Assembly (NCBI GenBank): GCA_012797845.1
Contig: JAAZOH010000041.1
Span: 1-51,759, forward strand
DNA: 51,759 bases
Source: Candidatus Beckwithbacteria bacterium
Lineage (GTDB): Bacteria > Patescibacteriota > Microgenomatia > UBA1400 > UBA1449
Direction: 5' to 3'
Part shown: one piece after another, positions 6,071 through 21,195 of the stretch
Layout of the letters: each line of letters opens with the position of its first letter
Numbering within the stretch: the first letter of the stretch is position 1
The notes under the pieces: model-generated
Seen by the model: the letters and a program-made list of their open reading frames with translations, nothing else
What the model was told of the DNA's origin: nothing
Databases searched by the model: none
Made by a program: the position numbers and the translations under genes

Positions 6071-6376
6071 TTAGATTTTCTTTTCTTTGCTCTTGATCTG
6101 TTTAAGCTTCCACATAAAAAGCCGAGATTTACTTTTAACATTAGTAGCATCGGTTACAAAAGAACGGGCTTGTTCTAAAAGTGATCTGGGCATGGTTTTG
6201 GCAAATTTAATATACATACTAACTCGCTTAAGATCATCAAGTTCCAAAGCTAAACGGTAACCATAATCCTGAAACTCTCGGCTAATATATTTACCACTAT
6301 TGTCTAAATCATGATTTTGAAGCAAGTCTCCCAAGCTTTGCATTTTGGAAGCTTGGCGTTTTGGAGCTGGTTTCAT
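6071..6376 (-). CDS. Small basic hypothetical protein coupled to pth
   Basis: A 101-residue soluble, Lys-rich protein, predicted mostly helical, with no signal peptide, membrane segment or cysteine. The ATG at 6376 is chosen over an upstream TTG because it overlaps the pth stop in the sequence ATGA, the usual arrangement for translational coupling. The central part (EFQDYGYRLALELDDLKRVSMYIKFAKTMP split around conserved-looking Tyr and Arg) and the basic tail suggest nucleic-acid or ribosome contact, but that is inference from charge and from the coupling to peptidyl-tRNA hydrolase. Confidence 0.72.
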   Translation of the reverse strand: MKPAPKRQASKMQSLGDLLQNHDLDNSGKYISREFQDYGYRLALELDDLKRVSMYIKFAKTMPRSLLEQARSFVTDATNVKSKSRLFMWKLKQIKSKEKKI

Positions 6377-6933
6377 AGACAATGGACTTCTTGGGTTTTT
6401 TCTAAAGCAGTGGCAAATAAAGCTGGTAATTGTGCCATTTCGGTCTGGCTAAAATCTTTTAAAACATAATTATCAGCCAAACTTAAACCCTGTTGTTTTA
6501 TGCTTTGATAGCCTAAACCAGCAATACCTAAACGTAATCGACAAAAGTCTGAAGTATGAAGCTGGTCAACAATATTGTTTACCCCGTTGTGTTGTTTAGG
6601 TCCTTTATTATGGCTTAGTTTATAGTGGCCAAAAGCTATGTCTAAGTCATCGTGAATAAGTAGTAAATCCTGATGAGGTTTAAGCTTATAAAAATCTATC
6701 AAAGCTTTTACAGCTATACCTGAATTATTCATGTATGTTTGTGGCTTAACCAGAAGTAGATCATCGGCATTATATTTTAACTGACAAACCAAGCTTTTGA
6801 ATTTTTCTTCATGGCAAAAACGAGCTTTGGGGTCAATTTTTTCTTGCAAAAAATCCACAAAGATAAAGCCAATATTATGACGGTTATAGCGGTGTTTTGG
6901 TTCCGGATTACCTAAACCAACTACTAGTTTCAT
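6373..6933 (-). CDS. pth: Peptidyl-tRNA hydrolase
   Basis: Pth releases peptides from peptidyl-tRNAs that have dropped off the ribosome. The 186-residue protein starts at MKLVVGLGNP; longer in-frame readings upstream would run into the preceding gene and lack homology. The conserved Asn9 and catalytic His19 (NRHNIGF) are present, as are the KPQTYMNNSG tRNA-contact motif and LLIHDDLDIAFG with its catalytic Asp. It starts 4 bases after the phosphoribosyltransferase stop and its TGA overlaps the next start (ATGA). Together with tmRNA-SmpB at 49-50 kb the window encodes two ways of dealing with stalled translation. Confidence 0.95.
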   Translation of the reverse strand: MKLVVGLGNPEPKHRYNRHNIGFIFVDFLQEKIDPKARFCHEEKFKSLVCQLKYNADDLLLVKPQTYMNNSGIAVKALIDFYKLKPHQDLLLIHDDLDIAFGHYKLSHNKGPKQHNGVNNIVDQLHTSDFCRLRLGIAGLGYQSIKQQGLSLADNYVLKDFSQTEMAQLPALFATALEKTQEVHCL

Positions 6934-19338: not shown

Positions 19339-19380
19339 AATTTTTACTTATTAGTTTTTTTGTACCAGCGGGTGGGTTCG

Positions 19381-19410
19381 CCACTCAAAGAGCGGTCACT
19401 CTTGGAGTGA
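19381..19410 (-). other. 30-base hairpin inserted in the T-loop of the interrupted tRNA
   Basis: The insert separates T55 from C56 of an otherwise perfect TTCGAAC T-loop. It folds end to end into a 12-pair stem (one T-G pair at the base, one C-T mismatch) closed by the six-base loop TGACCG. The terminal bases pair with each other, so the T-arm could be extended without disturbing the rest of the tRNA. Confidence 0.7.
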
Positions 19411-19430
19411 AACCACCAACCTTAGCCTTA

Positions 19431-19580
19431 CCTGCCCGCAATGCTAAAGCGCCGTTTTGAAAAACAAACTTAATTACAAATAAATTTTGTACCAGGGGTG
19501 GGATTCGAACCCACAACCTTAGCCTTATGAAGACTCTGCTCAGACCATTGAGCTACCCTGGCATAGCTTTTGCAGGCGGG
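19431..19580 (-). other. 150-base structured insert in the anticodon loop, carrying a second tRNA
   Basis: The insert begins CCCGCCTGC and ends GCGGGCAGG on the minus strand. These ends pair over nine positions (seven Watson-Crick, one T-G, one C-A mismatch), an imperfect terminal inverted repeat. A further complementary pair inside, GCAAAAGC with GCTTTAGC, provides an alternative or extended stem. The complete tRNA at 19490-19562 lies between these arms. Without that tRNA only 77 bases remain, too short for a group I intron. Confidence 0.7.
19490..19562 (-). tRNA. tRNA with CAT anticodon (Met or Ile2), complete, nested in the interrupted tRNA
   Basis: A 73-base canonical tRNA without encoded CCA. 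Acceptor GCCAGGG / CCCTGGT (G1-U72 wobble), TA at 8-9, D-arm GCTC-AATGGTCT-GAGC with GG in the loop, anticodon stem GAGTC / GGCTA (27-43 is a G-A mismatch) with loop TTCATAA, variable AGGTT, T-arm GTGGG-TTCGAAT-CCCAC, discriminator A. It lacks the three G-C pairs of initiator tRNA, so it is an elongator Met or a lysidine-type Ile2 tRNA. Its anticodon arm is identical to that of the surrounding interrupted tRNA, which indicates duplication. Confidence 0.88.
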
Positions 19581-19620
19581 TGAAGACTCTGCTCTACCAC
19601 TGAGCTACGCTGGCAAAAAA

Positions 19621-19695: not shown

Positions 19696-19702
19696 TCTTG
19701 TG

Positions 19703-19776
19703 TAGCGGGTCCCCGGTAACGCTCCAGAGGTTAGGTGAGGTTATGAGCCTCACGGGATACTTACCCCCCACCCGCT
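19703..19776 (-). ncRNA. tRNA-like cloverleaf with CAT in an initiator-type anticodon loop
   Basis: Seventy-four bases can form four stems. The acceptor is AGCGGGT / ACCCGCT, the D-like arm GGG-TAAGTAT-CCC, and the anticodon arm GTGAGG-CTCATAA-CCTCAC. The T-like arm is CTCTGG-AGCGTTA-CCGGGG. The anticodon loop CTCATAA and GCGGG acceptor core recall initiator tRNA-fMet. However, T8, the D-loop GG and the TTC of the T-loop are missing. It is therefore a degenerate or specialised tRNA-like RNA rather than a normal tRNA. It lies between ftsB and the palindromic element, on the same strand as the other CAT tRNAs. Confidence 0.45.
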
Positions 19777-19890
19777 ATAACAGGCTATATCTTATCAAAA
19801 TTTACTTCAAATGGCAATGAAATCTGAGATTAATTTTTTAAATCCTATAAGTTAAAGCTTAAAATAAGAGCTTAACGAATTATTTTAAAC

Positions 19891-20334: not shown

Positions 20335-21195
20335 ATGGCTATTACTTTATCACAAACCCAAACAAATTTTATCGACTTTTTACAAAAAAAAGGTCGGGCT
20401 AGTGCTACTATTTTGGCTTATGGTAATGACATCAATCAGTTTATTGATTTTTTACACAAGCAAAATATTAACGAGTTAAGCACTATCAGCAAAGATCATA
20501 TCGAGAGTTTTAAGAACTCCCTTCTTGATCAGGGCTATACTACCAAATCAGTGGCCCGCAAGCTTAATTCTATCAAAACCTATTTCCGCTTTTTAGAGTC
20601 ACAAAATCTGATTAGTGCTAATCCTAGCCAGGGAGTAGCTCATCCCAAGTATGTTTTAACTCCACCTCGGATTTTAACTAAAATGGAATATCGTAGTTTA
20701 AGAGATGTGTGTCGAAACGATCCTAGAATGTATGCCATTGTTGAGCTTTTCTTACAAACTGGCATTCGGATCAGCGAGTTAGCTCGTCTTACGCTCGAGG
20801 ATGTTAAAAACAGCAAAATTACTATTGGAGCTTACGAATCTCATATTGACCGCACTATTCCATTAAACAAATCAGCCAAAGCTGCTATTGATCTTTGGTT
20901 GGAAACTAGACCTCAATCTGACAGCAAAGCCTTGTTTATCACTAAAACTGGCCGACCTTTTCAGGTTCGAAATATTAGAACTGCCTTGGATCGCTATTTT
21001 AAATTAGCTGATATTGCCAACGCTACGGTTAATGATTTGCGCCACACCTTTATTGCCCATCAGTTAAAAGCTGGTACACCACTAACCCTAGTTTCCAAAC
21101 TAGCTGGCCACAAACGACTTTCCACTACTGAGAAATATTTGGAGTTTATTAAAGAAAAAAACAACTCCGAAAACATGCATTTGGAAGAGCTTTAA
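20335..21195 (+). CDS. Tyrosine recombinase of the XerC/D type
   Basis: The 286-residue protein has an N-terminal SAM-like core-binding domain (about 5-90) and a C-terminal catalytic domain. Arg145 (TGIRISEL), Arg236 and His237 (NDLRHTF), His259 (AGHKRLSTT) and nucleophile Tyr268 are visible. Two usual catalytic positions differ: the first His of HxLRH is Asn233, and no Lys occupies the beta-hairpin segment (GAYESHIDRTIPL). It is the only recombinase in the window and probably resolves chromosome dimers. It diverges from ftsB, another division gene, and overlaps the convergent hydrolase gene by 4 bases. Confidence 0.9.
   Translation: MAITLSQTQTNFIDFLQKKGRASATILAYGNDINQFIDFLHKQNINELSTISKDHIESFKNSLLDQGYTTKSVARKLNSIKTYFRFLESQNLISANPSQGVAHPKYVLTPPRILTKMEYRSLRDVCRNDPRMYAIVELFLQTGIRISELARLTLEDVKNSKITIGAYESHIDRTIPLNKSAKAAIDLWLETRPQSDSKALFITKTGRPFQVRNIRTALDRYFKLADIANATVNDLRHTFIAHQLKAGTPLTLVSKLAGHKRLSTTEKYLEFIKEKNNSENMHLEEL

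Follow-up and report, generated by a model that had tools for sequence, protein, structure and literature searches.

Introduction

Transfer RNA genes are usually regarded as stable, and as landing sites that integrating elements restore. In a genome of Candidatus Beckwithbacteria, a preliminary description noted a tRNA gene interrupted twice by hairpin-forming inserts, one of which carries a second complete tRNA. Such a locus raises the question of whether the outer gene is spliced and used, is kept to assist the tRNA inside it, or has been lost and replaced. The genome, 1.28 Mb in 46 contigs, is rated 100% complete, and the window analysed here is one whole contig (C41) of 51,759 nucleotides. 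From comparisons of this locus with the rest of its genome and with other genomes, we favour, with a probability of roughly 0.6, the reading that the window holds a broken elongator tRNA-Met gene which has been replaced from inside by a tRNA of the same anticodon.

Structure of the locus

Three tRNA pieces lie on the minus strand at 19363-19614, split by inserts of 150 and 30 nt. The features, in the direction of the gene, are as follows.

19581-19614, minus strand: outer elongator tRNA-Met, 5' part; 34 nt, ending in TTCA at position 35
19431-19580, minus strand: insert 1, bounded by a hairpin, in the anticodon loop between positions 35 and 36; 150 nt, holding a complete tRNA-Met
19572-19580, minus strand: left arm of insert 1, CCCGCCTGC; the same 9-mer stands at the same end in other genomes
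19490-19562, minus strand: intact elongator tRNA-Met (CAT) inside insert 1; detected with ARAGORN and Rfam RF00005 (63.5 bits)
19431-19439, minus strand: right arm of insert 1, GCGGGCAGG
19411-19430, minus strand: outer tRNA-Met, middle part, from the 3' side of the anticodon loop to the start of the T-loop; identified from the joined-exon tRNA
19381-19410, minus strand: insert 2, a T-loop hairpin; 30 nt, with a close second copy in a tRNA-Glu of the same genome
19363-19380, minus strand: outer tRNA-Met, 3' part; identified from the joined-exon tRNA

Joining 19581-19614, 19411-19430 and 19363-19380 yields a 72-nt elongator tRNA-Met (CAT), which ARAGORN calls only after removal of both inserts. 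In the usual tRNA numbering, insert 1 falls at 35/36 and insert 2 in the T-loop. Exon joining, ARAGORN and RF00005 together confirm the arrangement first described, a tRNA broken by two hairpin inserts with a complete tRNA in one of them. The outer tRNA had also been called perfect and canonical; it is indeed recognised by ARAGORN as a 72-nt tRNA, but it has a G-A mismatch at the base of the anticodon stem. This mismatch is common to the outer and the nested tRNA-Met, which are 90% identical. The ends of each insert pair with each other, as had been proposed: the end arms of insert 1 are more stable than 500 of 500 shuffles and the hairpin of insert 2 more stable than 498 of 500, although the pairing of the insert 1 arms includes one C-A mismatch and one G-U pair. 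The exact junctions do not follow from ARAGORN by itself, which accepts 113 of 169 shifted junctions as some tRNA; what sets them is the position of the hairpin ends, together with retention of the CAT anticodon and the identical junction in other genomes.

Insert 1 contains no integrase gene, and no direct repeat flanks its junctions. A group I intron had been discounted on length, and rightly so, since the insert is far too short and no group I core is matched by Rfam in the window or at the locus. A mis-joined tandem array, likewise set aside in the preliminary description, is ruled out because the outer halves pair with each other and the nesting recurs in other genomes.

Directly upstream of the locus, at 19700-19785 on the minus strand, is a GC-rich stretch with complementary ends (AGCGGGT...ACCCGCT) that matches no Rfam family at the curated threshold and may be a small RNA not yet recognised. 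A tyrosine recombinase of the phage integrase family, probably a housekeeping enzyme of the Xer type, is encoded at 20335-21195, about 700 bp from the locus. Elsewhere in the window, 49908-50338 matches tmRNA over 431 nt, about 57 nt beyond the 374-position model.

Transfer RNAs and hairpin families of the genome

An RF00005 scan of the assembly found 39 tRNAs, among which the nested tRNA-Met is the only one with a CAT anticodon. Initiator, Phe, Tyr and Asn tRNAs were found on none of the contigs, and ARAGORN run with introns allowed found no interrupted forms of these four in the approximately 321 kb of the genome that it covered. A tRNA-Thr(TGT) is cut by a contig end, so that assembly gaps explain at least some of the absences.

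Stripped of its tRNA, insert 1 is a hairpin that recurs alone in the same genome, within the anticodon loop of a tRNA-Arg(CCG); the arms CCCGCCTGCAAAAGCTATGC...GCATTGCGGGCAGG match those of that solo hairpin (CCCGCCTGCAAAAGCTATGCTTTAAGCATTGCGGGCAGG). Another solo copy of this family lies in a tRNA-Leu(TAA) relic. The second copy of insert 2, 90% identical over 39 bases, interrupts a truncated tRNA-Glu in the D-loop. Both families therefore have the mark of mobile palindromes, one hairpin at several sites of a genome. The suggestion of two hairpin-type mobile insertions is thus well supported, as other copies of both families were found in the genome and all of them sit in broken tRNAs.

The genome contains a second nest at C26:1687-1915 (L339), where a complete tRNA-Arg(CCG) lies within the variable region of a tRNA-Arg(CCG), here without pairing arms. 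This outer tRNA also bears the solo hairpin in its anticodon loop and a further hairpin in its T-loop. Upstream of each of the genes for Leu(CAG), Leu(TAG), Ala(GGC) and Ser(CGA) stands a relic with one of its loops interrupted by an insert; that at Leu(TAG) forms a weak hairpin only. With Leu(TAA) included, a hairpin-broken relic stands beside an intact copy for at least 8 of the 38 tRNA genes checked.

Recurrence in other genomes

A search of 89 relatives with the locus found a Thr-in-Thr nest in G088 with identical insert ends and position, and a Met-in-Met nest in G005 with different hairpins. When the class was scanned with a pattern consisting of the insert ends around a T-loop motif, 10 of 374 genomes matched, and the reversed pattern matched none. 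A search of related genomes for the same inserts in tRNA loops, proposed at the outset as a check, thus found them in G088 and at further loci in the class, the phylum and GTDB. The GTDB-wide scan for the end pattern returned 86 stretches, of which about 30 were judged real in an uncurated reading. Those with a tRNA inside belong to Patescibacteria, except for one from an Ignavibacteria bin and two more from genomes named only 'bacterium'; the remaining stretches, with no tRNA inside, look like chance matches. A relaxed scan of the phylum, which also recovered inserts with their ends in the opposite orientation to the tRNA, found about 20 loci with tRNA cargo in 19 of 380 genomes. A scan of IMG/VR produced a single match, and it holds no tRNA.

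Altogether the scans added about 45 tRNA-carrying inserts, nearly all of them in Patescibacteria; counts of independent loci are approximate, since the same genome may occur in more than one collection (for example L132/L237 and L152/L238). Each of the 45 parsed inserts has a tRNA remnant of the same strand around it or next to it, and none of them is a free-standing intergenic tRNA cassette. Most are inserted at 35/36, others at 34/35, 36/37 or 37/38 or in the D-loop, D-stem or T-loop; outer copies with long loop inserts were parsed partly by eye. Of 56 genomes, 12 have solo hairpins with ends of the insert 1 type, most of these hairpins lying outside tRNAs. One solo hairpin breaks a tRNA-Cys in G632, where an intact copy is close by. 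At two related loci, L111 and L152, the nest has three levels; the innermost tRNA body is common to both, with the anticodon TGT in one and CGT in the other, matching the outer copies where these are readable. We found no report of nested same-anticodon tRNAs in the open-access literature, to which the search was confined, subscription papers and preprints being outside its scope.

Anticodon and condition of outer and nested copies

In 22 of 24 confidently rebuilt outer tRNAs, the anticodon is that of the nested tRNA. The two exceptions, Trp CCA to CTA and Ile GAT to AAT, each have one base changed in the outer copy, and a third outer change (Gly GCC to GTC) belongs to a copy with long loop inserts that was left out of the 24. 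This rule is the main regularity across dozens of loci and lay beyond what the preliminary description could see. The nested types include Met, Thr, Val, Ile, Gly, Ala, Glu, Arg, Trp, Pro, Lys and Gln.

Nested copies are intact, whereas outer copies range from perfect to ruined. The mean number of stem mismatches is 0.17 in nested and 0.88 in outer tRNAs (Wilcoxon p = 0.003), and the outer copies omitted from this comparison are mostly worse: truncated in L225 and L234, left with a six-base anticodon loop in L080 and L228, and, in L107 and L135, rebuilt in the T-arm by hairpins. About one third of the rebuilt outer copies, that of the window among them, have essentially complete stems. As the nested copies are intact and the outer ones often decayed, selection appears to act on the nested gene, with the outer one at best optional.

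Nested and outer tRNAs share 60-90% identity, and a nested tRNA is on average no nearer to its own outer than to outers of the same anticodon in other genomes. The nested copy is therefore either foreign or long diverged, and duplication of the outer tRNA in situ is unsupported in general. At the window, the 90% identity makes a recent duplication of the outer tRNA-Met possible.

Proposed replacement of a broken gene from inside

The reading we favour, the replacement of a broken gene from inside, draws on hairpin families that reside in broken tRNAs, on the recurrence of the nests, on agreement in anticodon and strand, and on intact nested copies within decaying outer ones. Small mobile hairpins would insert into the loops of tRNA genes, and insert 1, by entering the anticodon loop, would have killed the outer tRNA-Met gene. 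The break would have been survived because the apical loop of the hairpin held a complete tRNA of the same anticodon, placed behind the same promoter by its orientation in the direction of the outer gene. The nested tRNA-Met would then be the working gene, expressed from the outer promoter and released by ordinary RNase P and RNase Z processing, and the outer tRNA-Met an unused relic. The T-loop hairpin would be a second insertion, tolerated since the gene was already dead. Lineages would persist in which an intact tRNA of the same anticodon lies inside or just behind the broken gene; the route by which that tRNA arrived we can only infer. Our candidate for the enzyme that would open the target is a GIY-YIG nuclease, since genes of this kind are strongly associated in the phylum with tRNA genes and their relics, far beyond what chance would give. 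The comparisons suggest that loss of tRNA genes to small mobile hairpins, with replacement in place, has happened repeatedly in these bacteria.

Several observations count against replacement. About one third of the rebuilt outer copies, again including that of the window, keep their stems as a used tRNA would, and solo hairpins are mostly outside tRNAs whereas tRNA-carrying ones are found only in tRNAs. No intact autonomous element, with nuclease and tRNA within one arm pair, was found among the loci searched; the nearest case, L327, has a GIY-YIG pseudogene and lacks a right arm. The anticodon match could reflect either survival or a nuclease that targets one tRNA and brings its replacement, and for neither do we offer more than a candidate mechanism. 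Random insertion followed by survival only is hard to reconcile with the data: it is strained by the lack of intergenic tRNA-carrying inserts, and it should admit mismatched anticodons because several of the matched ones (C34 types) are formally dispensable.

Alternative explanations

A sharper form of replacement from inside, compatible with it, would be a natural cleave-and-rescue drive, in which a GIY-YIG homing nuclease is directed at one particular tRNA gene and its element supplies, as a substitute, a diverged copy that the nuclease cannot cut; the window would be a derivative without the nuclease. A nuclease with its own replacement tRNA would explain the anticodon match directly. At 12 of the 30 GIY-YIG loci inspected, the gene is followed directly by a tRNA on its own strand, for which chance would give about 0.3% per locus. 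Genomes with nests average 6.2 GIY-YIG genes against 2.9 in the ten others searched (p = 0.004), a comparison based on a hand-chosen sample. In several cases a tRNA 5' fragment and an intact copy of that tRNA enclose a GIY-YIG gene: this is so for Glu and Leu in the present genome and for Glu in L308, Cys in L319, Asn in L328 and Tyr in L334. GIY-YIG genes also stand beside the nests L227, L235 and L239, and a GIY-YIG pseudogene follows the nested Gly in L327. The divergence of nested from outer tRNAs fits as well. However, a GIY-YIG neighbour is found at only a minority of nests and is absent from the window locus. At the Glu and Leu loci of the present genome (C32:14871-15295, L031, and C44 at about 6080-6480, L186), both at hairpin-broken tRNAs, the intact tRNA repeats the 5' end of the relic exactly; the rescue copy is thus undiverged there, which argues against this explanation. 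GIY-YIG genes may also merely settle near tRNAs, and their cutting specificity is putative. We regard such a drive as a tentative and rather unlikely proposal.

At L334 (G103), two tandem tRNA-Tyr 5' fragments surround the GIY-YIG gene and an intact tRNA-Tyr follows. In both fragments the same hairpin takes the place of seven anticodon-arm bases.

A new class of intron in bacterial tRNAs, cut at the hairpin base by a nuclease, with the exons joined by RtcB or another ligase so that both tRNAs are made, is in our estimation an unlikely explanation of the inserts. The intact outer stems at the window, and inserts that lie in loops with their ends paired, speak for splicing. An EndA-like endonuclease and an RtcB ligase had been named as the enzymes to look for. 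RtcB is indeed encoded in this genome, and it is rare among the 89 relatives, where only four others have it, including the nest-bearing G005 and G009; in RtcB-bearing genomes, the outers examined (Met and Arg here, and those of G005, G009 and G147) are well paired on our reading. EndA (PF01974), the archaeal-type endonuclease, was absent from all 14 nest-bearing or related genomes searched, while four archaeal controls were positive. As a marker of splicing, RtcB was striking among the relatives but faded over the class, where it occurs in only 3 of 11 nest-bearing genomes against 33 of 363 others (Fisher p = 0.08). Outer copies that are truncated, have six-base loops or carry changed anticodons (CTA, AAT, GTC) would be useless or toxic if spliced; the nested tRNA in tRNA-Arg has no pairing arms; and the tRNA-Cys of G632 is broken by a solo hairpin with an intact copy close by. 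With EndA missing, RtcB absent from most nest-bearing genomes and several outers mutated, the intron class offered in the preliminary description is left unsupported. Splicing is possible most of all in RtcB-bearing genomes with intact-looking outers.

That the outer tRNA is kept as a scaffold or leader, its fold guiding the processing or expression of the nested tRNA, seems to us very improbable: relics upstream of an intact tRNA do keep their 5' end, and the outer tRNA of the window keeps its whole fold, but in other genomes an intact nested tRNA often sits in an outer copy that is truncated or rebuilt. An assembly or binning artefact, conceivable in an assembly of 46 contigs, is refuted by the same arrangement in dozens of independent assemblies and by the second nest in this genome, and we give it next to no credence.

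Implications

In this phylum of minimal bacteria, tRNA genes seem to have been lost and replaced over and over at the same spot, with the anticodon kept and the body not. If the link to a nuclease is true, nature would have in these nests its own version of engineered cleave-and-rescue drives; successive drives would leave Russian-doll tRNA genes behind and turn over the tRNA genes of Patescibacteria rapidly. If splicing is true, they would represent a new class of bacterial intron. Under either reading, the outer tRNAs are missed by gene finders.

Comparison with known systems

Integrative elements at tRNA attachment sites often use the anticodon loop, carry an integrase, and keep a working tRNA because recombination restores its 3' part. 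Here, in contrast, a whole tRNA lies between the two halves, in an insert of about 110-150 nt with no recombinase gene. Archaeal tRNAs with bulge-helix-bulge introns, and split tRNAs, may have several inserts per tRNA, at unusual loop positions and with paired ends. The present loci resemble them in having multiple loop inserts in one tRNA, with ends paired, and differ in the absence of EndA, in the nested same-anticodon tRNA and in the many decayed outer copies.

REP families with RAYT (Y1) transposases are short imperfect palindromes in many copies (PMC3733652). In the present genomes, no matching arms flank the Y1 genes inspected, save isolated motifs at two loci (L266 and L271). The presence of Y1 transposases does not track the nests, and a Y1/RAYT transposase was rejected as the mobiliser for want of such an association.

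The rRNA genes of CPR bacteria contain insertions that are not introns, some of them coding for GIY-YIG proteins and most of them at the top or base of an rRNA stem-loop (PMC11270868); the main text of that paper does not mention tRNAs. These are the same bacteria, and L329 (G649:C1) is one such insertion, a GIY-YIG gene in 16S rRNA with a perfect inverted repeat, ATGCCACACCTCTTA...TAAGAGGTGTGGCAT, at its bounds. The rRNA insertions differ from the nests in that replacement of a broken gene is not involved.

Palindromic mobile elements that form hairpins lie inside genes in Rickettsia. Repetitive hairpin-forming elements are also found in the mitochondria of sponges and fungi (PMC2800124). The inserts described here are like both in being short GC-rich hairpins, of several families per genome, that reside in RNA genes. 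They are different in that some of them contain a complete tRNA, which matches the interrupted gene in anticodon, and in that the nests have up to three levels.
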